This document shows, in pieces, positions 38,537-52,840 of a DNA stretch of 64,000 nt (position 1 is the first letter of the stretch; each line of letters begins with the position of its first letter). The notes under the pieces were generated by a model. The model did not search any database. It was not told the DNA's origin and saw nothing but the letters and a program-made list of their open reading frames with translations. The translations under genes and the position numbers were made by a program. The stretch is from contig CANJIU010000004.1 of the NCBI GenBank assembly GCA_947474365.1, positions 1 through 64,000 on the forward strand. The letters are read 5' to 3'. The DNA comes from Opitutia bacterium. GTDB taxonomy: Bacteria > Verrucomicrobiota > Verrucomicrobiia > Opitutales > Opitutaceae.

Positions 38537-40606
38537 TCAGGTTGCGGCGACCGGCGGCCTGACGCCCCAGCGCTCGATGATCACCTTGAGTTCCTCGATG
38601 CGCACCGGCTTGGAGATGTAGGCGTCCATGCCCGCGGCGAGGCATTTCTCGCGATCGCTCTGCATGGCATTTCCCGTCATCGCGATGATGCGTGGACGCT
38701 GCGCTTCTTTTCCAGCCCACTTGCCACAGATGCGGCGCGCAGCCTCGTATCCGTCCATCTCAGGCATCCGCACGTCGAGAAAAATGAGATCGTAGACCTT
38801 GGAATCGAGGGCGGCGAGGGCCTCGATGCCGTTGCTCACCACGTCGACTTTGTAGCCGAGCCGCTGGAGCAGCATGGTACCGACCATCTGGTTGATCGCG
38901 ATGTCGTCCACCAGGAGGATGCGCAAGGGAATCCGCGTCGCCAGTGACTCTGCAAACGGCGAGGCCACGGGCGCGCGTTTCTCATTGGTGAGGCTGCGGC
39001 CCAGGCACCGCACAACCGCCTCGAGCAATTGGGCTGGGCGGATCGGTTTTACGATCGAGGCGTCGGCACCGATCGTTGCCGCGTCATCGGACCGAATCCG
39101 GCGCGCCGGCATCAACAGGATCGCCACGCCGCCCGCGGCCGCCCGCAGACGGGCAACGCCGCCGGACAGGTCGGGCGACAGCAGTTCGGCATCGAGGGCC
39201 AGCAAATCGAAACTCGCGCCAGGAGCGGCAAGGGCGGCGTCAGCCACCGCGACCGACGGGGCCTCCACAACCTCAAGTCCCCAGAACGACGCACACTGGG
39301 AAAAAGCACTGCGCTGGGCAGCATTGTCCTCGACCAGCAGTACCCGTTTGCCGCGCAGCGAAGCGGGCGCCTGCTGCCAGGCGGGCGCCGTGGTGTCGCC
39401 CCGGCGGACGATGATGTTGAAGTTGAACTTGGCGCCGCGGCCGGCCGCGCTCTCGACCCACATCGTGCCGCCCATCAACTCGGACAGGCGCTTGCTGATC
39501 GCGAGACCGAGCCCCGTGCCGCCGAATTGTCGGGTGGTCGAGCTGTCGACCTGGCTGAAACTCTGGAAGAGCCGATCCTGCTTTTCCACCGGGATTCCCA
39601 GGCCGGTGTCAGCGACCGAAAAATGCAGCACGATATCCCCGTCTTTCGTGCCTTCACTCGCGCGGACGGAAATCACGACCTCGCCCTTCGACGTGAATTT
39701 CACGGCGTTGCCGATGAGGTTCACCAGCACCTGCCGCAGGCGCGTGACATCGCCCACCACCATCGTCGGCGTCGCCGGATCGATCAGGACGACGAGGTCG
39801 AGGCCTTTTTCCGCCGCCTTCAGGGCCAGCAGTTCCATCGCCTCCTCGACACAGTGGCGCAAATCGTAGACGTGGGTCTCAAGTTCGACCATGCCGGATT
39901 CGATTTTGGAGAAATCGAGGATGTCGTTGATGATCGCGAGCAGGCTCTCGCCCGAATTCTTGATCAAGTCGGCGATGTCGCGCTGCTCGCCGGTGAGCTC
40001 CGTGTCGTAGAGCAGCGTCGTCATGCCGATCACGCCGTTCATCGGCGTGCGGATCTCGTGGCTCATGTTCGCGAGGAAGTCGGACTTCGCCCGCGTGGCC
40101 TGCTCGAGTTTCTGGTTGAGGGAGATCAGCGCAGCGTTGCTGTCCGCGAGCTGATGCTGGCTCTCGCGCAACGCCCGGAACGCCTCATCGCGCTGCCGGG
40201 CGTTGATGTAAAACTCGGAATGAAACCGCACGCGCGCGATCAACTCGACGCGGTCGGGCAACTTGACGAGGTAGTCGTTGGCCCCGAGTTCGAACGCCTG
40301 CGCCTTGATCTTGGGATCCTCTTTCGTTGAAAGCACGATCACCGGGACATCCTTGGTGAGGGGATTGGCCCGGTACTTTTGCAGCAAATCGAAACCGTCC
40401 ACCCCCGGCATGATGAGATCCTGGAGGATCACGGTCGGCTTGAGCTGGGCGGCAAGTTCCACGGCTTTGTTCGGGTCCTGACAATAGTGGAACACCAGAT
40501 CTTCTATATCGGCCAGGCTGCGGCGCACCGCCTCGGCAACGATCGCTTGATCGTCGACGAGCAGGACCATCATCGAGATGGAAAAGGGCGGGCGGGTGAC
40601 ATTCAT
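38537..40606 (-). CDS. WspR-type receiver fused to hybrid histidine kinase with two further receivers
   Basis: A 689-residue protein: an N-terminal receiver (about 13-130, phosphoacceptor Asp63 in [12 protein letters not shown]), a helical linker, HisKA (MSHEIRTP with His183), HATPase with [11 protein letters not shown] and [15 protein letters not shown] and [10 protein letters not shown], then two receivers. The middle receiver (about 420-540) is degenerate, with the usual DxxMP pattern missing. The last has Asp611 in [14 protein letters not shown]. The first receiver, with [26 protein letters not shown], closely resembles that of WspR. It occupies the wspR position at the end of a wspABCDEF-like operon but has no GGDEF domain, so phosphotransfer rather than direct c-di-GMP synthesis is expected. 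Start MNV at 40606; a start at the Met pair (12-13) is possible. Confidence 0.85.
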
Positions 40607-40634
40607 CGAGGGAAAAAAATAATTGTGGGGGTAA

Positions 40635-41645
40635 CTAGTTCGAAAGCAACTGCAGCAATGCCGGTCCGATTTGGTTCAACGGCAGCACCGATCCAACGGC
40701 CCCCAGCTCCGCCGCGGTCTTGGGCATGCCATACACCGCACTGCTGCCAGCGTCCTGGGCAAAGGTCGGAAAACGCGCGTCGCGCATCTTCTTCAACCCG
40801 CGGGCTCCGTCCTGACCCATGCCCGTCAGGATTACTCCGGCGGCCTGACCGGTCCAGTGGGTGGCCACACTTTCAAAACATTCGTCCACCGACGGGCGAT
40901 AAACATAATGCACGGGCTCACGGCGATAGATCAGCGTACCGTGGGAAGTCAGCACGAGATGATCGCCGCGACCCGGCATCAACACCGTTCCGGGTGTGAG
41001 GGCGTCGCCATCCCGCGCAAGTTTGACCCGCAGGGATATCTGATCGCCGAGCCACGTCGCCAGCCCGGCGGCAAAACTGTCGTCGAGGTGTTGCACCACC
41101 AGAAACGACGCGGGCGTGTCCGCCCGGAAAGCCTTCAACACCACCGCCAGCGCCGCCGGTCCGCCGGCCGATGCGCCCAGCGCCACGAGCCAGGGCCGGC
41201 CACGGGCCGCAGGTCGGTGGACCTCAAACGCCGGACGCGTCGCCGACACGGGAACGGAGGTCTCGCCAATCAACCGGCCGAGCGCGTCAATCTTGGCCAG
41301 CAAGACGGCCGCACCTTCGCCATTGAGCGCCGGGGTGTTGACCGCATCCAGGGCCCCCGCGCCCAGCGCGTCGAACACGCGGGTCGTCGTGCCCTCCACC
41401 GTGGCGGTTACGACCAGGATCGCGCACGGGGTCGCGGCCATGATCCGACGGGTGGCCTCGACGCCATCCATCACCGGCATGATGAGATCCATCAGGATGA
41501 GATCGGGGCGATCCACCGCACACCGACGTACCGCCTCGGCACCGTCGGCCGCTGTCCACGCAAGCTGATGTTGCGGCGCACGCACCAGCACCCGGCGCAA
41601 CGCCTCGACCGCCATGCCAAGATCATTGACGATGGCGATCCTCAT
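40635..41645 (-). CDS. wspF: chemotaxis-type methylesterase (CheB/WspF)
   Basis: A 336-residue response regulator with a C-terminal methylesterase. The receiver holds the phosphoacceptor Asp in [20 protein letters not shown]. The esterase begins [16 protein letters not shown] (catalytic Ser) and includes [17 protein letters not shown] (catalytic His) and [19 protein letters not shown] (catalytic Asp). WspF removes methyl groups from the WspA-like receptor, setting signal adaptation. It overlaps wspE by four bases (ATGA) and precedes the fused kinase by 29 bases. Several N-terminal receiver residues deviate from classical CheB, as in WspF. Confidence 0.92.
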
Positions 41646-44029
41646 TCAGCCACCTCCACCGTTCCCACCGCGTCGCCGATCAGATCGCGCACGGCATTGA
41701 GCATCGTCTCATCGTGGAAGCTGCCCTTGGTGAGATAATAGTCCGCACCGGCGTCGAGACCGCGGCGGCGGTCCTCCTCGCGATCCTTGTAGGACACGAT
41801 CATCACCGGCATGGAACGTAGCTTGGGATCCTTCTTGATCAGCGTTGTGAGTTCAACGCCGTCGAGTCGCGGCATGTCCACGTCGCTGATGACGAGATCG
41901 AACGAGCCGGTCCGCACCGCGTTCCAGCCGTCCATGCCGTCGACGGCAATTTCCACTCCATAGCCGCGGCCTTCGAGGAGCTTGCGCTCGAGTTCACGCA
42001 CGGTGAGTGAGTCGTCGACGACGAGGACGCGTTTGCGGGCGACCGACGTCTGCGCGGCGGCCGTGGCGTGCACCACGCCAAGGGTGCCCGCGGCGGCAAT
42101 CTTTTCCACGGACCGGACGAAGTCCTCGACATCAATGATGAGGACGGGTGAACCGTCCTCCATGAGCGTGCCGGCCGCGATATCCTTGATTTTTCCCAGT
42201 CGCGGATCGAGGGGTTGAACCACGAATTCACGTTCGCCCACAAAGCGATCGACCACCACGCCGTAGCGATTGTCGGCGTCGCCGACCACGACCACCGCCA
42301 GCGAGCCGCCGTGCGATCCGCCGCTCCGGCCCAGCACCTGATGGGCGTTGACCAGCCCGATGCGCCGGCCGTCAAAACCAAAATGCTGCCGGCCCTCGGT
42401 CGACGAGACGTCGCTCTCCGGCACGCGAAGCGTATGGGTGATGAAGCCGAGCGGAATCGCATACGGTTCGTCCGCAACCTCCACGAGCAGGGCGCGCACG
42501 ACGGAAAGCGTGAGCGGCAGCTGGAGCTGAAATTTCATCCCTCGTCCGGGCACTGAAGCGACCCGCACCGTGCCCCGGACCGCCTTCACCATGCTCTGCA
42601 CAACATCGAGGCCGACGCCACGCCCCGAAATTTCCGTCACGGTGTCCTTCAGCGTGAAGCCCGGCAGGAAGAGAAACTCCAGCAACTCCGCCTCGCTCAG
42701 CCGCGGCGCCGTTTCCACCGCCACGAGCTTCTTGCGCACGACGGCCTCGCGGATGACCTCCGGGTTGGCTCCGCGCCCGTCGTCCGCGACGGAGACGAGC
42801 AGCATTCCCGCACGATGCCGGGCGTCGAGCGTGATGGTGCCTCCGGCGGACTTGCCCGCGGCGACACGGACCTCCGGGGCTTCGATGCCGTGGTCGACGG
42901 CGTTCCGCAGCAGGTGGCCCAATGGCGCCTCGAGTTTCTCGAGGACATCGCGATCAACCTGCGTATCCTCTCCAACGATCTCGAGCCGCGCTTCCTTTCC
43001 GAGCGAGCGGGCGACATCCCGCACCATCCGGGAGAGACCCGTCACGCCGTCCGAAAACGGCCGCATCCGCACCGCCAGCGCCTCGCCATAGAGACGCTGG
43101 GCAAGATTGGTCGAGCGCCGATCGTAGGTCTCAAGCTCACCCAACCGCGCGGTGAGATGTTCGCGGCAAAGGGCCAGTCGCCGCTGGGCTTCGGCGAGCG
43201 ATTCCTTCATCCGCGTCTGGGACTCGCCCGCATTGATGCGATCGCGCAACTGATCGAGCGAACGGTTCAGTTCGTAATGCAGCCGCTTGAGACGCGAGAC
43301 CGAGACGCCGAACGGCCGCAGCCAGCGGGATTCAACCAGCGATTCACCGGCGAGTCCGAGCAGGCGGTTGAGATTCTCCGCCGTGACGCGCAGCGCCCGC
43401 GCTTCAGCGCGGTCGGCACGATCAGACCGCGGAGCCTCTGCCGGCGGTTTCGGCGCCGCCTCAACCGGGCGGACGGGAGCGGGCGCGGCGATGATCCCGG
43501 GCAACACCGGGGAGACAGCGGCTGCCGCCGTCGGCGGCGCCGGGGGCTTGATCTCATTGCCAAAGTCATCGACGGGACCGACCGGAGCCGGCGCGGTGAT
43601 CATTGCGGGCGCGGCGGGAGCCGCCGGCGGTGGGGCGAGCACGGTCTTGAGGCCCCGGACAAAATCGGCGACATCCGGCATCCGGCCGGCCTCCCAGGAG
43701 GGCAGTTCTGCATCGCTCGACTGCGCGATCCGCGTGAGAATATCGACGCCCTGCAACAACTGGTCCACTTGGGCGCTGCCCAAAATCACCTGGCCGCGCT
43801 GCGCAGCGACAAAACAATCCTCCATCGCGTGCGCCACCGACACCGCGGCATCGATCCCGACGATCCGGCCCGCGCCCTTGAGCGAATGCGCCGCGCGCAT
43901 CATCGCCTCGAGCTGCGCCGTGTCTCCCCGTTCCAGTGAGAGCAATCCTTCCGTCAGTGCCGCCAACTGGCTTTCCGCCTCCATCCGGAAGAGGTCCACC
44001 ATCGACATGTTCTGGAGATTGTCGTTCAT
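41642..44029 (-). CDS. wspE: CheA-type kinase with C-terminal receiver (WspE)
   Basis: A 795-residue hybrid sensor kinase in the WspE layout: an Hpt domain at the N-terminus with His48 in RAAHSLKGAGRI, a Pro/Ala-rich linker (about 130-205), the catalytic region with HLLRNAVDHGIEAPEVR and DDGRGANPEV and GRGVGLDVVQ, a CheW-like domain, and a C-terminal receiver with DLVISDVDMPRLDGVEL. It should take signals from the WspA/WspB/WspD array and phosphorylate WspF and the final receiver protein. The gene overlaps its neighbours on both sides by four bases, so the operon is tightly coupled. Confidence 0.93.
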   Translation of the reverse strand: MNDNLQNMSMVDLFRMEAESQLAALTEGLLSLERGDTAQLEAMMRAAHSLKGAGRIVGIDAAVSVAHAMEDCFVAAQRGQVILGSAQVDQLLQGVDILTRIAQSSDAELPSWEAGRMPDVADFVRGLKTVLAPPPAAPAAPAMITAPAPVGPVDDFGNEIKPPAPPTAAAAVSPVLPGIIAAPAPVRPVEAAPKPPAEAPRSDRADRAEARALRVTAENLNRLLGLAGESLVESRWLRPFGVSVSRLKRLHYELNRSLDQLRDRINAGESQTRMKESLAEAQRRLALCREHLTARLGELETYDRRSTNLAQRLYGEALAVRMRPFSDGVTGLSRMVRDVARSLGKEARLEIVGEDTQVDRDVLEKLEAPLGHLLRNAVDHGIEAPEVRVAAGKSAGGTITLDARHRAGMLLVSVADDGRGANPEVIREAVVRKKLVAVETAPRLSEAELLEFLFLPGFTLKDTVTEISGRGVGLDVVQSMVKAVRGTVRVASVPGRGMKFQLQLPLTLSVVRALLVEVADEPYAIPLGFITHTLRVPESDVSSTEGRQHFGFDGRRIGLVNAHQVLGRSGGSHGGSLAVVVVGDADNRYGVVVDRFVGEREFVVQPLDPRLGKIKDIAAGTLMEDGSPVLIIDVEDFVRSVEKIAAAGTLGVVHATAAAQTSVARKRVLVVDDSLTVRELERKLLEGRGYGVEIAVDGMDGWNAVRTGSFDLVISDVDMPRLDGVELTTLIKKDPKLRSMPVMIVSYKDREEDRRRGLDAGADYYLTKGSFHDETMLNAVRDLIGDAVGTVEVAE

Positions 44030-44688
44030 GACAGGGACCGGTTGAGGGTGTAAAACAGGAGCTGATCATCGAGCACCCCGACGGGTTGCTCCCGCCACAT
44101 GAGGATGCCACGGGTGTAGGCCGCCTGGGCGTGGACGAGGGTCGCGGGCACCGGACTGAGGTCACTGTCGTTGTACCGGTGCAGCCCGACGATTTCCTCG
44201 GCCGGAAAGACAAAACGGTCGCTGTCGCGGCTCACCACGGCGAGGCGAGCGCTCGCGCCCAGACTGTCGGTCGGCTTCTCGCTCAGCCCGAGTGTGGCGG
44301 CGAGCGACACGCAGACCAGCAGTTCACCGCGAATGTTCACCACTCCGCTCACCACGCGGTCGCGCCGGTGCGGCAGAGAATGCACCGGGCGCAACGGCGC
44401 GACCTCGCGAAACACGGCAGTCGACAATGCCAGCCACTCGCCCGCGAGCCGGAAGACCACGGCCGAACGTTCGCCGGGGCGCGCGCCCCGTTTCGCCTGC
44501 GCATAATGTTCGGCCTGCTCGGCGAGGTACGCCTCCGACACTTCGGAATCGAGCAGTCGCGAGGCGTTGGCCGAATAGACCGGGCAGTTCCGACAATGAA
44601 CGTGGATCTTCAGTTCCGGACAGGTGCGGTCGCCGAACGTGCCGATCCGCTTCCAACACTCGATGGTGACTGGCGGGGCCTGGTTCAT
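44026..44688 (-). CDS. wspD: CheW-domain coupling protein with Cys-rich N-terminus (WspD)
   Basis: A 220-residue coupling protein. The CheW domain (about 70-215) is marked by SGVVNIRGELLVCVSLAATLGL. The first 45 residues carry CWKRIGTFGD, CPEL and HVHCRNCPVY with four Cys and two His, a pattern typical of WspD-like proteins that could bind a metal. In Wsp systems two CheW proteins couple the receptor to WspE. It overlaps wspC and wspE by four bases each. Confidence 0.9.
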   Translation of the reverse strand: MNQAPPVTIECWKRIGTFGDRTCPELKIHVHCRNCPVYSANASRLLDSEVSEAYLAEQAEHYAQAKRGARPGERSAVVFRLAGEWLALSTAVFREVAPLRPVHSLPHRRDRVVSGVVNIRGELLVCVSLAATLGLSEKPTDSLGASARLAVVSRDSDRFVFPAEEIVGLHRYNDSDLSPVPATLVHAQAAYTRGILMWREQPVGVLDDQLLFYTLNRSLS

Positions 44689-45923
44689 CGGGCCTCCTTC
44701 AGCAGAACGCGCTGGGCCCGTTCACGAAACGCACGGGCCCCGCGCAAATCACCTTTTTTCTCCGCGATCAGCGCCAGGTGCGCCAGCGCATCGGCGCGCT
44801 GGGGGTCGAGATAGAGCACCTTGCGGAACAAACCCTCGGCCCGCGCCGAGTCGCCGGTGGCCTGCGCGACCACCGCGAGCAGGAAGAGCAGCGGGGCCGA
44901 CGCCCCGTGGCGCTCCAGCAGCCTTTCGCCCAAGACTGAAGCCTCCGCGAGCTGGCCGGCATCGGCGAGCCGCTCCAATTCCGCCATCGTCTCGCCGCGC
45001 GCCGCGGGGGCGGTGGAAAAAGGGACGGCAGTGGCGGTCGACTTGCGCGGCGCCGGGGAGGGCGTGGGCGCCGGTGCGGGCGGGGTGAAGAGCGGCTTTA
45101 CCGGCAGGGGCGGCCGCAGGCCGACCGCCGGGCCCCGGCGGAGCAGGAAACCGGCGCGCACCTTCAGCGCCTCGTATCCATGTTCAAACAACAGGACCGG
45201 CTCCGCCGGCCCGACCGCGAACCACCCGTCCGAAACCAACAGACGATCCAGGGCGCGGACCGCCCTCGCCTGCGTCGGCCGATCGAAATATATGAGCAGG
45301 TTGCGGCAGAAAACGGCGTCGTAACCCAGCCGGCCGAGCGGAAATTCGTCCGAGAGCAGGTTGCCCTGATCGAAGCGCACCGGCTCGCGGATCCGGTCGC
45401 TCACCCGCCACGCATCCTTCCCGGCCGGTTCAAAGTACTTCTCGCGAAACGTCAGGTCGTCGCCGCGGAACGAATTGCGGCCATAGATCCCGCGCCGCGC
45501 GCGGTCGAGGTTCTGGCGGCTGATGTCCACCGCGTCGATCTGCACCGCCTTCAGCGGCCATCCGGCAAGATCCAGCGCCATCGCGAGCGAATAGGCCTCC
45601 TCGCCCGTGGAGCACGGCACGCTCAGCACGCGAAACGTGGCCCCCGGATGCGCCTGCCGCCACGGGCCGGCCACGTGCTGCCCGAGGGCGTCGAAGGCGG
45701 GCCGGTCGCGGAAGAACCACGTCTCCGGCACGATCACCCGATCGATGAGCGTGTGACGCTCCTCCGCGGAATCCTTGAGCCGCACGAGGTAGTCCGCGGC
45801 GGAAGCGCAGCCGACCTCGCGGATGCGTTCCCGCGCCGCGCGCGCGACCGTGCCGGCGCCGAGCGTCGACGCGTCGAGCCCCGCGAACGACTGCAGCCAA
45901 GTTTCGATCACCGTGACGTTCAT
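44685..45923 (-). CDS. wspC: CheR-type methyltransferase with C-terminal TPR (WspC)
   Basis: A 412-residue protein. The CheR N-domain is followed by the SAM-binding fold with VPCSTGEEAYSLAMAL, SRQNLDRARRGIYG and the DAVFCRNLLIYFD motif. From about residue 310, after a Pro-rich linker, tetratricopeptide-like helices follow, with LAEASVLGERLLERHG and ARAEGLFRKVLYLDPQRADALAHLALI. CheR with a TPR tail is the hallmark of WspC. It methylates the WspA-like receptor. It overlaps wspB and wspD by four bases. Confidence 0.93.
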   Translation of the reverse strand: MNVTVIETWLQSFAGLDASTLGAGTVARAARERIREVGCASAADYLVRLKDSAEERHTLIDRVIVPETWFFRDRPAFDALGQHVAGPWRQAHPGATFRVLSVPCSTGEEAYSLAMALDLAGWPLKAVQIDAVDISRQNLDRARRGIYGRNSFRGDDLTFREKYFEPAGKDAWRVSDRIREPVRFDQGNLLSDEFPLGRLGYDAVFCRNLLIYFDRPTQARAVRALDRLLVSDGWFAVGPAEPVLLFEHGYEALKVRAGFLLRRGPAVGLRPPLPVKPLFTPPAPAPTPSPAPRKSTATAVPFSTAPAARGETMAELERLADAGQLAEASVLGERLLERHGASAPLLFLLAVVAQATGDSARAEGLFRKVLYLDPQRADALAHLALIAEKKGDLRGARAFRERAQRVLLKEAR

Positions 45924-46417
45924 GATGCGCTCCGCGCGATCGCGGATGTTGCCACCATCGGCTCGACCTCGTCCGGAAACAACGCCGCGCGCACGCGATC
46001 GTTGAGCAGCAGGTGAACGTCGACGCGCTGTACGAGTCCGCGGGCGTCCCGCGCGACGGGACCGAGGAAAGGGGCGGTCTCACTGACGATTCCCGTGGGC
46101 AGAAACTCCGCGGGCTCCTTGGAAAGCATCTCGGTCGCGCGTTCGGCAATGACGCCGAGCAACCGCACTCCGCCGCGGGGAGGCTGGTAGTTGACCATGA
46201 GCAGCCGGGTGCTCACCCGGCGCGCCGAAGGTCGGCCGAGCGCGAGCGCCGCCAGGTCGATGACGGGCACCGCCGTCCCCCGGTAGTCGAACAGACCCGC
46301 CACTCCCGGGGGCGCCCCAATGACGGACTTGACCGCGAGCAAGGGCAACACCTCCACCACGTCCCGGGCGGGGAGCGCATAGCGATCGGATCCGAGTTGG
46401 AAGAGGATGAAGAGCAT
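45920..46417 (-). CDS. wspB: CheW-domain coupling protein (WspB)
   Basis: A 165-residue single CheW domain with FQLGSDRYALPARDVVEVLPLL, GLFDYRGTAVPVIDLAALAL, and the terminal receptor-interaction strands. It joins the receptor to the kinase WspE. It starts 27 bases after the receptor gene stop and overlaps wspC by four bases. Its length and lack of an N-terminal Cys motif distinguish it from the second CheW protein of the operon. Confidence 0.9.
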   Translation of the reverse strand: MLFILFQLGSDRYALPARDVVEVLPLLAVKSVIGAPPGVAGLFDYRGTAVPVIDLAALALGRPSARRVSTRLLMVNYQPPRGGVRLLGVIAERATEMLSKEPAEFLPTGIVSETAPFLGPVARDARGLVQRVDVHLLLNDRVRAALFPDEVEPMVATSAIARSAS

Positions 46418-46444
46418 GGTTCCCGGACGGGAATCGCGCCGCGA

Positions 46445-48160
46445 TCAGCTGCGAACCTTGAAGCGTTCGACCCCAGAGCGCAAACCGCGCGCCGCCTCGT
46501 CGAGGCGCCGGACCGTTTCGTTACTCTGGTACAGAGAGTCCGCCGTCTGCCGCGCCGCCTCGCCGAGCTGCGTCAGCGCCTGACTGATCTGTTCAGCCCC
46601 GGTGGTCTGCGCCTGCATGCCTTCACTGACCGAGGCGATGCGCGGGGTGATGGCCTGCACGTTTTGAATGATCTGCGCGAGCTGGCTCGCGACCTTTTCG
46701 ACATCGGTCACACCGCGCCGCACCTCCTCAGAGAACTTGTCCATTCCCATGACACCCGCGGTAACCGCCGATTGGATTTCCTTCACGAGCTGCTCGATGT
46801 CGACCGTGGCGGCGGCGGTCTGGTCCGCGAGTCGGCGAATCTCGGTGGCGACGACGGCGAAACCGCGGCCATATTCGCCCGCCTTTTCGGCTTCAATCGC
46901 GGCGTTGAGCGAGAGCAGGTTGGTTTGGTCGGCGACCTTGGCGATGGTCGTGACGACCGAGCCGATGTTGGCGGCCTTGTCGTTGAGCACGGCCAGGCGG
47001 TCGTTCACGCCGCCAGCGGCCTCGGTGACACGGCGCATCGTGTCGTCCATCCGGCCGAGTGCCTCGCGCCCGCTGTCGGCGAGGGTGGCGGTCTGCTGCG
47101 CGCCATCGCTGACATGCGCGACGCTTTGCGCGAGGTCGCGCGAGGTGGCGGAAATCTCCTTCGAGGTCGCACCAATCTCCGTCGTTGTCGCTGCAACCTG
47201 GTTGGCGGTGGACTGCTGCTCCTTGGCGGTGGCGGCGACCTCGGTGATCACGGAGGAGACGATGACGCTGGAGCGCTGGACCTCGGTGACGAGCGAGGCG
47301 AGCTTGTGGCCCATCTCCGCGAGGGTGTTACCCATGACATCCCGTTCCGACTGCGGCTTGAATTCGGCGGTCAGGTCTCCCGATGCCACCCGGTTCGCCG
47401 CCTCGCTAAACGAGCGCAGGGACGCCACCAGGCGTCCAAACGAGATCGTCAGCTGGCTAATCTCATCGCGACCATGCGCCTGGGGAAGCCGGGCGGAAAG
47501 ATCGCCACTGGCGAGCACGCCGACCGCCGTGGACAATTCCTGCACCGGGCGGGTGAGGGCGCGGGCAAAAAACAGGAGCGAAATGACCGTGCCGGCAAAA
47601 ATGACCGCGATGGTGATGAGCGCCAGCACCCGCTTGTATTTGGCATCACTCAGCCGGGCTGAGATATCCTTCTCGGTCAGGCTGCGAAAATTTTCGAGCA
47701 GTTTGTCCTGTTCGCGCCGGAGCGGCAGGTAGGCACTGGTGAAGTACGCCGAGGCCGCCGCGGTGTCGGTCACCAGAAGTTCCAAGACCCGGTTCTCCGC
47801 CTTGCTGAGTCGATCCACGTCAAGCTCGCGAATGGCCTCCGCCGCGCGCACCAGTTCCGGCTTGTCGTAGAACGAGCTTTTCATCGACTCGATCGTCTTG
47901 GACAGGTGCGCGTCGGCCGCCGTCCGACGCTGGCGTTCCGCCTGATTGCTCGGGTCGAGGAGAAGGGCCCGCAGGGAGTCGGTGACCTGCAGGGCATCGA
48001 AACGGATCACCGCGGAGCTCGTCTCGATCTGGTCGCGCTGTTCGATCGTGAGATCCTCAAGTTGCAACGTGAAGATGAACAACCGGAACCCTCCGGCAAG
48101 GGCGAGCATGACCAGACCGAAGTAGGCGTAGAGACGTTGGGCGATAGTCCAAGATTTCAT
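46445..48160 (-). CDS. wspA: methyl-accepting chemotaxis protein (WspA)
   Basis: A 571-residue transmembrane receptor: membrane segment 1 (about 10-32), a periplasmic four-helix sensor (about 35-180), membrane segment 2 (about 181-203), a HAMP domain ([11 protein letters not shown]), a second HAMP-like stretch, and the signalling hairpin with [31 protein letters not shown] (in separate blocks). The downstream [21 protein letters not shown] region is characteristic of WspA. The first gene of the operon; the 246-base gap upstream should hold its promoter, and the plus-strand Hpt gene begins at 48407. Confidence 0.94.
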
Positions 48161-48406: not shown

Positions 48407-48745
48407 ATGTCCAGCTCTCCGCCGCCCAACGAAGCCCTGGTCGAGCTCGCGAGTGTGCTCGGTGAAGACAACGTGCGCACCTTGGTGAAGACCTTTCTGC
48501 GCGACTTCCCCGCGTCGCTGAAAGAACTGAGCGGAGGTGATCGCAAAAATCGCCATCGGATCGCGCACAGCCTGAAAAGCAACGCGCGCCTGATGGGGGC
48601 CTACACGCTCTCCGATCGCATGGCCGCCCTGGAGGAGCGTCTGGGCAGCGACGGTGGACCCGACGTCAACCCGCAGGACCTGATGGCAATCAAGACAGAT
48701 TTCGATCGCATTGCGGGATCGTTGAGGGGCTTCGCGGGACTGTGA
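48407..48745 (+). CDS. Hpt-domain phosphotransfer protein
   Basis: A 112-residue all-helical protein with the phosphoacceptor His54 in RIAHSLKSNARLMGA. It should relay phosphate between a receiver of a hybrid kinase and a response regulator. It lies just upstream of the wsp operon on the other strand and is convergent with the LuxR-type regulator gene. An obvious, unproven partner is the hybrid kinase at the end of the wsp operon, which has two C-terminal receivers but no Hpt domain of its own. Confidence 0.85.
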   Translation: MSSSPPPNEALVELASVLGEDNVRTLVKTFLRDFPASLKELSGGDRKNRHRIAHSLKSNARLMGAYTLSDRMAALEERLGSDGGPDVNPQDLMAIKTDFDRIAGSLRGFAGL

Positions 48746-48783
48746 AGCCACCGCGCGTCCGCCGGGAACGGTCCCGGACCGGA

Positions 48784-49428
48784 TCAATCGTCGACGAGTC
48801 CGGCTTGGATGCACCAGCGGGTGAGACTGGCGACTTCGCGCACGCCCACCTTCTCCATGATATTGGCGCGGTGTTTCTCGACCGTCCGAACACTCAGGTT
48901 CAGTTTGGCGGCGATCTCCTTGGACATCTGGCCCGCGGCGACCAACCGGGCGATTTCCTGCTCCCGCTCGGTCAGCGGCACCTCCAGAGCGGGCCGCGGC
49001 GCAGCCAGACTGCTGGACGAACCGCCCTTGGCGCGCACCCGGCTGGCAAAAAACATTCCGCCGCTGCGCACGGTCTCCACGGCGCTGAGAACGTATTCGA
49101 TCGGCTCGGTCTTGTCCACGTAGCCGTTCACGCCGAGGACCATGAGATCGCCGGGCAACCGCTCGCTGGGATGGGCGGTGATGACCAGAATCTTCATCTC
49201 CGGCACCGCGCGACGCAGCTCGCGCGCAATCTCCATCCCGTTGATGTCGGGCAGCATCAGGTCGACCACCAGCATGTCGGGCTTTTCTTTCAGGCAAAAA
49301 TCCAGCCCGGGCTTCCCGAGGCCAAACTCTCCAATGACCTGCAGATCCTTCACTTTCCCGAGCGTAAGAAGGATCAGCTGGCGAAACATGGTTTCGTCTT
49401 CGATGAGAACGGCGCGAAGTTTTCGCAT
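48784..49428 (-). CDS. LuxR/NarL-type response regulator
   Basis: A 214-residue regulator with an N-terminal receiver (phosphoacceptor Asp56 in LVVDLMLPDINGMEIARELR, Lys in the YVDKTEP stretch) and a C-terminal helix-turn-helix, LTEREQEIARLVAAGQMSKEIAAKLNLSVRTVEKHRANIMEK. It should bind DNA as a dimer when phosphorylated. It is convergent with the Hpt gene, 38 bases away, and divergent from the NtrC-like gene at 49621. ATG 49428 is preferred because the receiver starts there; the frame runs 41 codons further. The Hpt protein could phosphorylate it. Confidence 0.92.
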   Translation of the reverse strand: MRKLRAVLIEDETMFRQLILLTLGKVKDLQVIGEFGLGKPGLDFCLKEKPDMLVVDLMLPDINGMEIARELRRAVPEMKILVITAHPSERLPGDLMVLGVNGYVDKTEPIEYVLSAVETVRSGGMFFASRVRAKGGSSSSLAAPRPALEVPLTEREQEIARLVAAGQMSKEIAAKLNLSVRTVEKHRANIMEKVGVREVASLTRWCIQAGLVDD

Positions 49429-49620
49429 GCTGGGGGCGGTCTTGGACTGAATAAGCGTTTTTGCTCGGCCGGCAACCGCACTTCTACGGATGCGCAGTTG
49501 AAAAGCGTTTGCTAGCATGTTTCGTGTGACAATCCCGATGACGGAACTCAAGCATACATTACATCGAGTCGGCGCCTTCCAGATGCGCCGGACCGCCGGA
49601 CATCCGCTTCACCAAGCCGC
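49429..49620. other. divergent promoter region between two response-regulator genes
   Basis: The 192 bases between the LuxR-type regulator and the NtrC-like gene must contain promoters in both directions. No operator or clear -35/-10 pair was recognised. Confidence 0.4.
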
Positions 49621-51174
49621 ATGAGCGCCCCAGAAGAGACCTCGCCCCGCGCCCACATCCTCGTGGTGGAGGACTCCGCGGTGTTTCGCGAGATGCAGGG
49701 ATTGCTACTCGGGCACGCCGGTTTTGGGGTGTCGCTCCACGAACGCCCCCAAACTGCGCTGGAGACGGCGGCCCGTCAGCACTTCGACCTCGTGGTGATC
49801 GATTACGAACTCCCCGACATGAACGGCCAGGTGTTCATGCACGAGTTGCGCAAGCTTCAGCCTGACATCGCCGTGATTTTTGTCAGCGGATCGCTCACTC
49901 TTGAACTGGCGATCCAGCTCAGCAGCGAGGGCGTGGCGGGAATTTTCAACAAGCCGGCCAACCCGAAATCACTTCTCGAAAAAATCAACGAGACCCTCGC
50001 CCGCCATTCCGCCCGCGACACCGCGGCGCGCGTCGGCTCCGGTTCGCCGCATTCCCCCGCCCGACGGGGCAATGCGAACTCCCCGGCCGGCTCCTCGACA
50101 TCGGCCCAGGGCGAGCCCACGGCCGAAAGGCTGGCCTACGCTCCCCGGTTTGTTTTGGGCAGCTCGGACAAGTTTCGCGAGTTCACCCACCGGCTCTGGA
50201 AAGTGCGCGATTTTCGCTCCGTTCTCCTTCTGCAGGGCGAGAGCGGCAGCCCGTTTGAACTTCTCGCGCGCGAACTCGCGGAGATTTCCATTTTTCGCGA
50301 CGGGCCGATCATGACCTGCGCGGCCGGGGAATTTGAGCCGCGCCGGCTCATCGAGGTGCTGGCGCCCTCTCTCCTTTCCCACGACGCCGGCACGCTGGTC
50401 GTCACCGACGTGGACACCTTCTCCCCCGAGCAGCAAAAGACCCTCGATCACCTGATGACGGGGCGGAACGTGTTCCTGCCGTTTGCCCGTCGCTTCCGTC
50501 TCGTGCTCGCCGCCTCGAGCGCGCTCTCCCAGCGCGTCGACGAAGGCTTGTTTGACGAGACCCTCTACTACAAGGTCAGCTCTCTCTCGCTCGTCGTACC
50601 CACACTGCGGGAACTGCGCGGCGACATCGCGGACAACGCCCGTAATTTTCTCCGGCTGCACCTCGAGGCGGGTAATGCCGGAACCCCTACCGACCTCTCC
50701 CAGGACGCCGCGGATTGGATTGAACAGCAGGACTGGCCCGGCAATTTCGACGAAATCAGAACGGTCCTCCTCAAGGCGCTGCAATTCGCCGACGGCGATG
50801 TGTTGACCTTGGACGCCATCTCGGCCGGCTGGCATTACGACGGCACCGCCAGCCCGGTCGCAGCCGACAGCCCGACGGCGTCCACCACGTCGATCGAAGA
50901 ACTTCCCACCGGCGAAACAAGGCCGCCCTTCCCCATCGCCAGCGACCTGGCCGCGGAAGCCGTGGAAGAGTCGACCGACGTTCCGATCCAGGCGGCGGCA
51001 CCCGTTGAAGCCTCGGTGGCCCTCGCTCCGGCGGGCCGGTTGTTCGCTCGCGCGGCGGCGCCCGCCAACCCCGTGGCGGTGCAATCGCAGTTCCGGCCAG
51101 CTTCCACCAGCTACGATTTTGCCAAACGGCTCGCTGAATCCATCGCCGCAGCCGAAGCCTGTGTTGCGCACTGA
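49621..51174 (+). CDS. receiver protein with degenerate NtrC-type AAA+ domain
   Basis: A 517-residue protein. The receiver (about 10-125) has the phosphoacceptor Asp in LVVIDYELPDMNG. After a Ser/Pro-rich linker, residues about 180-420 resemble the sigma-54 activator ATPase, but the Walker A is degenerate: GESGSPFELLAREL lacks the GTGK of the family, so nucleotide binding is doubtful. No GAFTGA loop is seen. Late motifs PGNFDEIRTVLLKALQFADGD echo the NtrC family's WPGNxREL stretch. The last 110 residues are Ala/Pro/Thr-rich with no HTH. A signal-transduction scaffold rather than an activator is likely. It begins the V4R gene run. Confidence 0.85.
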   Translation: MSAPEETSPRAHILVVEDSAVFREMQGLLLGHAGFGVSLHERPQTALETAARQHFDLVVIDYELPDMNGQVFMHELRKLQPDIAVIFVSGSLTLELAIQLSSEGVAGIFNKPANPKSLLEKINETLARHSARDTAARVGSGSPHSPARRGNANSPAGSSTSAQGEPTAERLAYAPRFVLGSSDKFREFTHRLWKVRDFRSVLLLQGESGSPFELLARELAEISIFRDGPIMTCAAGEFEPRRLIEVLAPSLLSHDAGTLVVTDVDTFSPEQQKTLDHLMTGRNVFLPFARRFRLVLAASSALSQRVDEGLFDETLYYKVSSLSLVVPTLRELRGDIADNARNFLRLHLEAGNAGTPTDLSQDAADWIEQQDWPGNFDEIRTVLLKALQFADGDVLTLDAISAGWHYDGTASPVAADSPTASTTSIEELPTGETRPPFPIASDLAAEAVEESTDVPIQAAAPVEASVALAPAGRLFARAAAPANPVAVQSQFRPASTSYDFAKRLAESIAAAEACVAH

Positions 51175-51237
51175 GGGCTTGCGGCCACGGGCCGCGCTGC
51201 AACGCTAGGAAGGAAGCGCCCAGCCGGCGCGCTCATC

Positions 51238-51858
51238 GTGTCAACCGTCACACCTCAGAAAATCTTCCAGCTGGACCTGAACGGAGGCGCCTTGCGCCGG
51301 GCCGGAGGAGAGCGCGTGACGGCAATATCGATCGAGATGATTGGCGGACTCTACCAAAGCCTCGTCAACCTGTTCGGAGACAAGTCCCGGGACCTTTTCT
51401 ACCGGACCGGCTATGAGTGGGCCCTGCAGGACATGGTCATGCTCAACCAGCGGCTGCACGACGAAATCGGCGGCGCCAATGTCGACCTCTGGCAGATGGA
51501 CGCCAAATTCATCATGGAGTCCTGGTGGACACCGATCGGCGAGGCCGGTTGGGGCCGGTGCACGTTCAATTTCGCCGCCCAATCGCAAGGGCTGGTGTTT
51601 GTCGAGTTGCACGACAGCGCGGTCGCGGCGCCCTTCGCCGAAGCCGAGGCGCCGGTTTGCCATCTTTACTCCGGACTCTTCGCCGGAGCGCTGAGTTTCT
51701 TTGAGCGCACCGAGCGCCACGCCGTCGAAATCCAATGTCACGCCCAGGGGGCGGCCTCGTGCCAGTTCATCGTCGGCCCGGGAGCAAAGATCGATGCGGC
51801 GGAGGCCATGCGCGTAAAGGGCACGCCGCCGTTGGAAATTGTCAGCCGACTCCATTGA
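51238..51858 (+). CDS. V4R-domain protein
   Basis: A 206-residue protein with a V4R (4-vinyl reductase-like) domain in the second half: the RCTFNFAAQSQGLVFVEL strand region, VCHLYSGLFAGALSFF, and the final VEIQCHAQGAASCQFIV. This family is a small-molecule or metal-binding fold often found in signalling proteins. The N-terminal half is helical and has no recognised family. It starts at GTG 51238, 63 bases after the degenerate NtrC-like gene, with which it is probably cotranscribed. A paralogue lies two genes downstream. Confidence 0.8.
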   Translation: MSTVTPQKIFQLDLNGGALRRAGGERVTAISIEMIGGLYQSLVNLFGDKSRDLFYRTGYEWALQDMVMLNQRLHDEIGGANVDLWQMDAKFIMESWWTPIGEAGWGRCTFNFAAQSQGLVFVELHDSAVAAPFAEAEAPVCHLYSGLFAGALSFFERTERHAVEIQCHAQGAASCQFIVGPGAKIDAAEAMRVKGTPPLEIVSRLH

Positions 51859-51865
51859 TTTTCCC

Positions 51866-52162
51866 ATGCATCCCTGGAAGGAACAGCACTACGCCCGCGC
51901 CACGGATTTCACCCGCCTCATCGCCGAGGCGCTGGGCGGGAGCGGCGCTCCGGCGGCCCTGCCGGCGGCTCAGCCCCGCACGGTTGCGGGCACGCCGGCG
52001 TTCACCCCCAGGTTGAATCCCGCGCCGGGTGCCAGACCCATGCCCGCGGCCAAACCCGCCGCCGCCGCGCGCCCGACAAACCCCGCCACCCCGCCGGCCG
52101 CACCGGCGGCCCCCGCTCCCACCGCCGCATCGTTGTTCACCACGATTCCCTGGAAAAAGTAG
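51866..52162 (+). CDS. small Ala/Pro-rich protein
   Basis: A 98-residue protein whose last two thirds are low-complexity Ala/Pro/Thr sequence, and whose N-terminus (MHPWKEQHYARATDFTRLIAE) is helical. It is seven bases after the first V4R gene and 12 before the second, so it belongs to the operon. No family was recognised. The repeated AAP/PAA stretches suggest a linker or disordered spacer protein. Confidence 0.6.
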   Translation: MHPWKEQHYARATDFTRLIAEALGGSGAPAALPAAQPRTVAGTPAFTPRLNPAPGARPMPAAKPAAAARPTNPATPPAAPAAPAPTAASLFTTIPWKK

Positions 52163-52174
52163 GCGCCCGAACCG

Positions 52175-52840
52175 ATGCCCGCCGACCCCAACATCCTTTC
52201 CTCCCTCGGGCTCGACTCTCTGATCGACGATGGTCAATTCGGTCGCGATCAGGAGGAGAACCTCCGCGATCCCACCGGGGCGCGCGTGGTGTTCGCCGCG
52301 GTGGAGGCGATGCGCAGTCTGCACGATGTGGTCGAAAACGAACGGCTGGGCGCTTGGCGCGTGGCCATGCAGGCCACCGGCCATATCTGCGGCCGCTCCA
52401 TCGCGTCCGACCTCGAACTCCGGCTCGGCGCCCTCGGCAAGCCCGCCCTGGCCGCCCTGCCGCTCGAGGCCTGCCTCGTCCTGATTGAACGCAGCTTCGC
52501 GATTCACGGCTGGGGCCGGCTCGAACTCGACCTTGCGTACGCCGCCCAATACGGACTCGTGTTGGCGCGGGTCGAGCACAGCTTTTTCGTCGAGGCGCTC
52601 CCGCACGCCACGGACTTCGTCGATCCGCTGATCGCCGGCATGCTGCAGGGATTTTTCGAACACATCAGCGGCCAAAGCCTCGGCTGCGAGGAAATCTCCT
52701 GTATCCGACACCCGGTGACGGGAAGCGTGTCGCCGGCCCTCTGTACGTTCGCCATCACCGCGCCGGAGCGCCTCGCCACCATCCGGGCCCAGCTGGGCAA
52801 TGCCACCGCCGAAGCGCTCATCGCGCGCCTCTGCTCCTAA
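52175..52840 (+). CDS. V4R-like protein
   Basis: A 221-residue protein, distantly similar in its second half to the V4R protein two genes upstream (WGRLELDLAYAAQYGLVLARVEHS, then DPLIAGMLQGFFEHISGQSL and CIRHPVTGSVSPALCTFAI). The N-terminal part is helical. It lacks some of the aromatic residues in the upstream paralogue. It sits between the Ala/Pro-rich gene and the following unknown gene, with 12 and 5 bases spacing. A ligand-binding signalling role is likely but unproven. Confidence 0.72.
   Translation: MPADPNILSSLGLDSLIDDGQFGRDQEENLRDPTGARVVFAAVEAMRSLHDVVENERLGAWRVAMQATGHICGRSIASDLELRLGALGKPALAALPLEACLVLIERSFAIHGWGRLELDLAYAAQYGLVLARVEHSFFVEALPHATDFVDPLIAGMLQGFFEHISGQSLGCEEISCIRHPVTGSVSPALCTFAITAPERLATIRAQLGNATAEALIARLCS

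Follow-up and report, generated by a model that had tools for sequence, protein, structure and literature searches.

A 64,000-nucleotide stretch of DNA from an Opitutia bacterium of the family Opitutaceae (Verrucomicrobiota; contig CANJIU010000004.1, positions 1 to 64,000; hereafter the window) carries an operon of the Wsp class of chemosensory systems in which the place of wspR is taken by a gene for a hybrid histidine kinase, here named X. Wsp is the textbook surface-sensing route to cyclic di-GMP (c-di-GMP), and the Pseudomonas gene set ends in the enzyme that makes c-di-GMP. In the reading that we favour, with a probability of about 0.7, phosphorylated WspE would signal through the first receiver of X, a stalk, the kinase and the last receiver to a histidine phosphotransfer (Hpt) protein in trans and on to a response regulator, and the fusion of receiver and kinase would have arisen independently of WspH, the kinase that replaces WspR in the Wsp system of Burkholderia (PMC8552884, PMC4324302; these, as well as PMC3447774, PMC3868531 and PMC8880074 below, are cited from excerpts of the papers). 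The operon and the parts of X are listed here, with REC for receiver and ORF for open reading frame.

46445..48160, minus: wspA, chemoreceptor (HAMP, MCPsignal); ORF and Pfam
45920..46417, minus: wspB, CheW; ORF and Pfam
44685..45923, minus: wspC, CheR with C-terminal tetratricopeptide repeats (TPR; match weak); ORF and Pfam
44026..44688, minus: wspD, CheW with N-terminal Cys motif CRNCP; ORF, Pfam and pattern match
41642..44029, minus: wspE, CheA (Hpt, HATPase, CheW) with C-terminal receiver; ORF and Pfam
40635..41645, minus: wspF, CheB (receiver and methylesterase); ORF and Pfam
38537..40606, minus: X, in the place of wspR, REC1-stalk-HisKA-HATPase-REC2-REC3, 689 amino acids; ORF and Pfam
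40232..40570, minus: REC1 of X, WspR-type receiver, phosphoacceptor D63; structure match and alignment
40091..40231, minus: stalk of X, inside the predicted helix 119-199, 68 residues from K115 to H183; model and spacing
39893..40090, minus: HisKA of X, H183; Pfam and alignment
39413..39754, minus: HATPase of X; Pfam and alignment
38987..39352, minus: REC2 of X, degenerate, the Thr/Ser position variable and acids lost in some relatives; alignment
38576..38920, minus: REC3 of X, intact, phosphoacceptor D611; Pfam and alignment

The operon is complete, running from 48160 to 38537 of the window on the minus strand in the order A-B-C-D-E-F-X, and its seven genes overlap or sit no more than 30 bases apart. 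A sequence-only reading of this DNA had recognized the wspABCDEFR order, and all seven genes are in place, with the expected Pfam domains in A to F. The Cys motif that it noticed in WspD is also real, the pattern CxxC[PA] being present in 15 of 20 further WspD frames; the five misses are two Pseudomonas proteins, one mis-started frame and two distant verrucomicrobial cores. Judged from sequence, the core is genuinely Wsp, and the first receiver and the stalk of X are of the WspR type. In a tree of WspE and WspF, whose rows were selected by hand and do not include every locus, 60 Wsp cores group together to the exclusion of four other CheA systems (SH-aLRT 100), and the window core combines wspA-wspF synteny with a grouping with Pseudomonas and Burkholderia Wsp and with a WspR-type receiver. 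Aligned over about 72% of its length, WspE shares 51-64% identity with its counterparts in plasmid-borne Wsp systems of alpha- and betaproteobacteria (20 records), identity falling to 30-36% in the next ten records. REC1 matches the WspR structures 3I5A and 3BRE at E = 4e-54 and 1e-53, with PleD next at 4e-21, which places it in the WspR family, as had been claimed. The GGDEF output of R-type Wsp is absent from the window operon, and the build is that of the H type, a WspR-type receiver fused to a histidine kinase with no GGDEF; the operon is at the same time an ACF cluster as defined in PMC3447774, with a CheR-TPR gene and a multidomain regulator in the same cluster.

The domain content of X is likewise as the sequence-only reading had it, a WspR-type receiver followed by HisKA, HATPase and two further receivers and no diguanylate cyclase: Pfam recognizes three REC, HisKA and HATPase and gives no match to GGDEF, and the best NCBIfam match is BarA, at 468 bits, under the cut-off of 890. 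Two outcomes had been set beforehand as speaking against the idea, a GGDEF domain in X and a receiver placed away from WspR, and neither occurred. Across 30 aligned proteins, gaps set aside, the phosphoacceptor Asp is kept in REC1 (29/29) and REC3 (28/28), and so are the kinase residues (His 30/30, N-box Asn 29/29, G1 Asp 29/29, G2 Gly 28/29). An AlphaFold2 model of X (mean pLDDT 80.6 over the whole model) has one unbroken helix, residues 119-199, leading from REC1 into the HisKA helix, with pLDDT of 65-88 along it.

The length of this stalk follows a simple rule. We measured the spacing from the conserved Lys of the receiver to a landmark in the output domain (the HisKA His, the GGDEF motif DxLT or a SpoIIE motif) in 159 non-redundant proteins. 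It is 68 in 50 of the 55 proteins with HisKA, the others having 61 (one), 47 (one) and 33 (three, all Burkholderia WspH); 52 in 64 of the 66 proteins with GGDEF and 45 in the other two; and 49 (26) or 42 (12) in the 38 proteins with SpoIIE. Eight lengths thus occur overall, and any two of them from the same output class differ by a multiple of seven. The distances taken as controls within these kinases, HATPase to REC2 (43 proteins), REC2 to REC3 (33), His to N-box (41) and N-box to G2 (39), also vary by amounts other than multiples of seven; these were located by simple patterns, with a few plain mis-hits (198, 199, -1), and His to N-box is almost invariant (115 in 38 of 41). If the five length differences are assumed to be independent events, the chance of such a series is about (1/7)^5. 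The count leaves out L086 (receiver truncated by the contig), one frame of L253 in which the Lys motif is missing, nine near-identical proteins, L090, L092 and L254 (duplicates under other ids), and 11 proteins with no pattern-findable landmark, five of them SpoIIE types (L237, L244, L246, L251, L340) and six of other builds. The seven-residue series fits a parallel coiled-coil stalk that would relay the state of the receiver in register.

As to occurrence, the kinase swap recurs in several Verrucomicrobiota orders, some with an Hpt of their own, and others have a SpoIIE phosphatase output; the survey of synteny suggested by the sequence-only reading turned up the Wsp core with one or the other output in several orders. 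Searched with the receiver of X (E <= 1e-28), three overlapping samples gave matches in 34 of 372 genomes (order), 56 of 384 (class) and 30 of 387 (phylum). The 34 matches in the order sample are 11 hybrid kinases and 23 REC-SpoIIE phosphatases. Among the first 16 hybrid-kinase X loci outside the window, ten come with wspA-F (including L059, with a second wspA, and L056, with X cut), L054 comes with E and F, and five have no core in the stretch; one of the five is a 5.5-kb contig whose genome carries WspE elsewhere, and WspE was not found at E <= 1e-100 in the genomes of the other four. At L065, L087, L088 and L089 (G009, G010, G015, G022), where X occurs in genomes without WspE, the receiver is more diverged and the stalk length is retained. 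In the class sample (43 stretches), WspF lies directly upstream in 31, and the builds comprise nine SpoIIE, two GGDEF (without WspF upstream), a fusion to a class III nucleotidyl cyclase (also without WspF upstream), a PAS-HisKA_3 kinase, two short Cys-rich forms and, for most of the others, kinases. The 22 newly read loci of the phylum sample are 18 REC-SpoIIE, three kinases and one unclassified; 18 of the 22 lie outside the class, 17 of SpoIIE type and one a kinase. A set of 17 stretches of the SpoIIE type read around the gene comprises 13 with full wspA-F, one with E and F, one with F only and two with none.

A scan of named genomes, taken as the best 80 loci ranked by likeness to the window, gave the GGDEF type in 64 of 64 Pseudomonadota and the kinase type in 14 of 14 Verrucomicrobiota (two of these contigs having already been counted), the nearest named relative being a metagenome-assembled genome of Opitutus sp. 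GAS368 (L091). That leaves two of the 80, the short form of an acidobacterium (L097) and SM23_31 (L112), in which REC-SpoIIE follows wspA-F. In one group, whose members are named Pedosphaera, Limisphaerales or merely Verrucomicrobia/Verrucomicrobiia, X ends in a fused Hpt in all six proteins scanned (L093, L094, L096, L098, L099, L100), and L107 has the build REC-HK-REC-Hpt; a terminal Hpt was not found in the scanned X proteins of Opitutaceae-like genomes and Verrucomicrobiales.

A few further observations belong to the same surveys. We had considered that no verrucomicrobial WspR-type receiver carries GGDEF, and none does in the order and phylum samples, but the class sample holds two (L341 and L344; WspF was not found in the 1.1-1.3 kb upstream of either). 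The class III nucleotidyl cyclase joined to a WspR-type receiver is at L342:790-2307. A WspR-type receiver and stalk with a short Cys-rich end without Pfam match is seen at L097:5037-5876, L335:612-1922 and L336:1022-1855, in the last two with another WspR-type fusion downstream of it. The operon head at L052:4345-7831 (G330) has two tandem wspA genes. A plasmid search with X was also made; among the matches listed (best 30 of 55), all look like ordinary hybrid kinases.

A signal at WspA would activate WspE, and the phosphorylated WspE would in turn phosphorylate WspF and D63 of REC1. Phosphorylation of REC1 would alter the packing of the parallel coiled-coil stalk, this packing would set the kinase or phosphatase state of the X dimer at H183, and phosphate would pass from H183 to D611 of REC3, then to an Hpt protein in trans and a response regulator. 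The part of the relay from REC3 through Hpt to the regulator is proposed because relatives of the Limisphaerales/Pedosphaera type carry the Hpt fused to X. Phosphotransfer as the output had already been put forward from the letters alone, and the kinase residues, the intact first and last receivers and the Hpt-fused relatives speak for it; the partner genes named at the time are another matter, as discussed below.

Of the published systems, Burkholderia WspH also combines a Wsp core with a WspR-type receiver fused to HisKA-HATPase and with a proposed phosphorelay output, its co-option to a relay with Bcen2424_1436 (RowR) having been suggested (PMC4324302). It is barely credible, nonetheless, that X is the same protein, by inheritance or by transfer. 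In three Burkholderia replicons WspH is a REC-HisKA-HATPase protein (368-377 amino acids as framed here) that has no C-terminal receivers, lies upstream of wspA and has a stalk 35 residues shorter, its receiver nearly abutting the kinase, whereas in X a WspR-like stalk (in relatives, QRDEAYRALRESQ..) is retained between the two. The two kinases are 29% identical, and each is nearer to other kinases, that of X to 20 ordinary verrucomicrobial hybrid kinases (47-65% identity, drawn from its better matches) and that of WspH to a Burkholderia CHASE2-PAS kinase (39%). The cores sit on separate branches as well, those of Burkholderia nested within the Burkholderiaceae cyclase (WspR-type) cores (support 99-100) and that of X grouped with the window's own family, including L091 (support 98-100). 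X and WspH therefore do not share the build, kinase family and position that would make them orthologous output genes, and since kinase family, junction, gene position and core branch all differ, the best reading appears to be two separate fusions. A continued action through c-di-GMP, by way of another cyclase, we hold to be very unlikely: GGDEF matches are absent from five of 17 X-bearing genomes searched, including G032, which has the operon with the hybrid kinase and is 95% complete (the other four are without WspE, and two of them are less than 90% complete), and c-di-GMP was unchanged in Burkholderia wsp mutants (PMC8552884). Several points weigh against the favoured reading. One clade of X and WspH is not rejected by approximately unbiased (AU) tests, either for the kinases (p 0.345) or for the receivers (p 0.09); the WspH kinase, with a branch length of 7.55, has no reliable place in the kinase tree; and in the best such tree one ordinary kinase, L226, falls among the 26 verrucomicrobial X kinases and keeps them just short of forming a clade, while a single clade is not rejected (p 0.322). 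Receiver-only trees, as called for at the outset, have weak resolution and intermix kinase and cyclase types; REC1 belongs to the WspR family, and these trees do not fix its position inside it. The model of X is weak (pTM 0.51, built on 14 sequences). Four genus members retain X with no WspE found, and X may thus also act alone. Two GGDEF genes are encoded on other contigs of the window genome, making an indirect effect on c-di-GMP possible. Finally, the core of G247 (L057) groups with the cyclase systems, yet its output is a hybrid-kinase X; as this X is close to those of its own family, L057 is a possible recombinant.

The sign of control is not readable from sequence, and it may be that phosphorylation of REC1 turns the kinase off, or to phosphatase, with WspE signalling silencing the relay. 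In Rhodospirillum centenum, CheA3 phosphorylates a receiver of the linked kinase CheS3 and does just this (PMC3868531); CheS3 is built differently, however (REC-REC-PAS-HWE kinase, signalling to CheY3), and Burkholderia wspA and wspE mutants are wrinkled and the wspH mutant smooth, as if WspH were switched on (PMC8552884), so that we see kinase silencing as a real but minority possibility. The identity of the partners beyond REC3 is where the sequence-only reading fares worst. It had routed the output through the adjoining Hpt to the LuxR-type regulator or to an NtrC-like protein, and Pfam bears out its description of these neighbours:

48407..48745, plus: stand-alone Hpt, a possible next step of the relay; Pfam
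48784..49551, minus: LuxR-type response regulator, genus-wide and not Wsp-specific; Pfam and orthologue search
49621..51174: REC with a sigma-54-activator-like ATPase (NtrC-like), a DNA-binding domain not found by Pfam at E <= 0.001; Pfam

A link is possible: these genes adjoin the operon in the window, X ends in an intact receiver, without an Hpt of its own where relatives fuse one, and L091 shows the order LuxR-Hpt-wspA again, as does, more loosely, L051, where a kinase gene and DUF4864 intervene. Against this, the LuxR orthologue is present in 23 of 25 genus genomes (E <= 1e-80), WspE in four and X in eight. In LuxR stretches from nine other genus members, wspA and wspE were not found; eight of the nine have Hpt, and the stretch examined past it extends from 2.8 kb (in G017, where the contig ends) to 7.3 kb. 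In G003, G017 and G024 wsp is on a different contig. In L297, DUF4864 lies 0.7 kb past Hpt, where the window holds the entire operon between them, and L301 has no Hpt match and DUF4864 immediately past LuxR. Outside the genus, and leaving G390 aside, an Hpt orthologue (E <= 1e-8) was not found in any of the seven members of the family that carry X. The proposed Hpt, LuxR and NtrC outputs are thus part of a genus-conserved block that is kept without wsp, LuxR-Hpt as a dedicated Wsp output was dropped since its distribution does not track wsp, and passage of the signal through these particular neighbours seems unlikely. The block itself, Hpt, LuxR, the NtrC-like ATPase and two V4R proteins at 48407-52840 of the window, is seen as NtrC-LuxR-Hpt-V4R-V4R in seven of the nine stretches.

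The direction of change in output also needs to be reconsidered, as a system "rewired from c-di-GMP" presumes an older cyclase form. In a rooted core tree (short search), the WspR-type cores, along with the three Burkholderia WspH cores, one acidobacterial core and G247, form a clade (support 96) amid verrucomicrobial cores, and a tree constrained to unite all cores of kinase or phosphatase type that are not in that clade is worse by 4.8 log units (AU p 0.187). The tree leans to kinase or phosphatase output as possibly older than the cyclase, and the AU test does not decide.

Kinase output in a Wsp system is not in itself a first case: its kind is already known, as WspH, the survey of CheR-TPR clusters and CheA3-CheS3 are published. 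In CheR-TPR clusters, HisKA and HATPase are present in about 40% of the regulators, others being phosphatases and cyclases (PMC3447774); these clusters share with the window the CheR-TPR gene and a multidomain regulator, and the excerpted survey sorts by architecture, with Wsp orthologues and the stalk not singled out. The window resembles the Wsp systems of Pseudomonas and betaproteobacteria in gene order A-F plus output and in the WspR-type receiver and stalk, and differs in having a hybrid kinase for GGDEF and a core on the verrucomicrobial branch. With R. centenum Che3 it shares a CheA-receiver hybrid that would act on the receiver of a linked kinase, to judge by the intact residues of REC1. 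BarA-type tripartite kinases share the HisKA-HATPase-REC(-REC)(-Hpt) half of X but have a membrane sensor for input where X has a WspR-type receiver. FlmD of Comamonas, considered as a parallel, is a single-domain regulator and thus none (PMC8880074). Wsp has been stated to be exclusive to beta- and gammaproteobacteria and WspH to Burkholderia (PMC8552884), and Wsp annotations are also listed in Planctomycetes (PMC6461901). Complete WspR-type systems on alphaproteobacterial plasmids (L043, L044, L047; Novosphingobium, Mesorhizobium, Hyphomicrobiales) lie beyond the published beta/gamma range. Among the titles and abstract starts listed from the literature (in part the best 20 of 196, 15 of 30 and 12 of 55), nothing concerned a verrucomicrobial Wsp, the fused Hpt, a Wsp core with SpoIIE output or the stalk rule, and supplementary tables of PMC3447774 might hold some of the clusters. 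The output swap is known elsewhere; in Verrucomicrobiota it recurs in several orders, and the helical phase of the stalk is retained throughout the proteins measured.

Some observations concern WspH itself. The non-WspH kinase nearest to it has 37-40% identity in five genomes; in the one of these that was read (L290:1251-5720) it is a CHASE2-PAS kinase encoded a short way downstream of an OmpR-type regulator, an arrangement also described for Bcen2424_1438/1436 (RowR). WspH may have arisen by fusion of a WspR receiver to a copy of that kinase, which would explain the requirement for RowR in Wsp signalling. Three Burkholderia genomes (L148, L157, L127 and L278-L280) hold both a WspR-type REC-GGDEF gene, adjoining WspF or the wsp core, and a WspH-type gene (380 amino acids, spacing 33), counter to the statement that no genome holds both; a fourth (L133/L281, 76% identity) is likely only.

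We tentatively propose, at somewhat short of even odds, that the WspR-type receiver and stalk are a phase-locked adaptor to which various output modules have repeatedly been joined: the diguanylate cyclase, histidine kinases of several kinds, the SpoIIE-type phosphatase, a nucleotidyl cyclase and a short Cys-rich domain. On this view the stalk would gain or lose whole heptads only, so that one rotation or register switch would serve every output, and the forms with kinase or phosphatase output in Verrucomicrobiota and their relatives may predate the c-di-GMP form. The seven-residue rule makes the way in which the WspR receiver drives its output a simple question of heptad changes versus kinase activity, and with the Wsp core found with kinase or phosphatase output in several orders of Verrucomicrobiota, c-di-GMP would be one output of this system among several.

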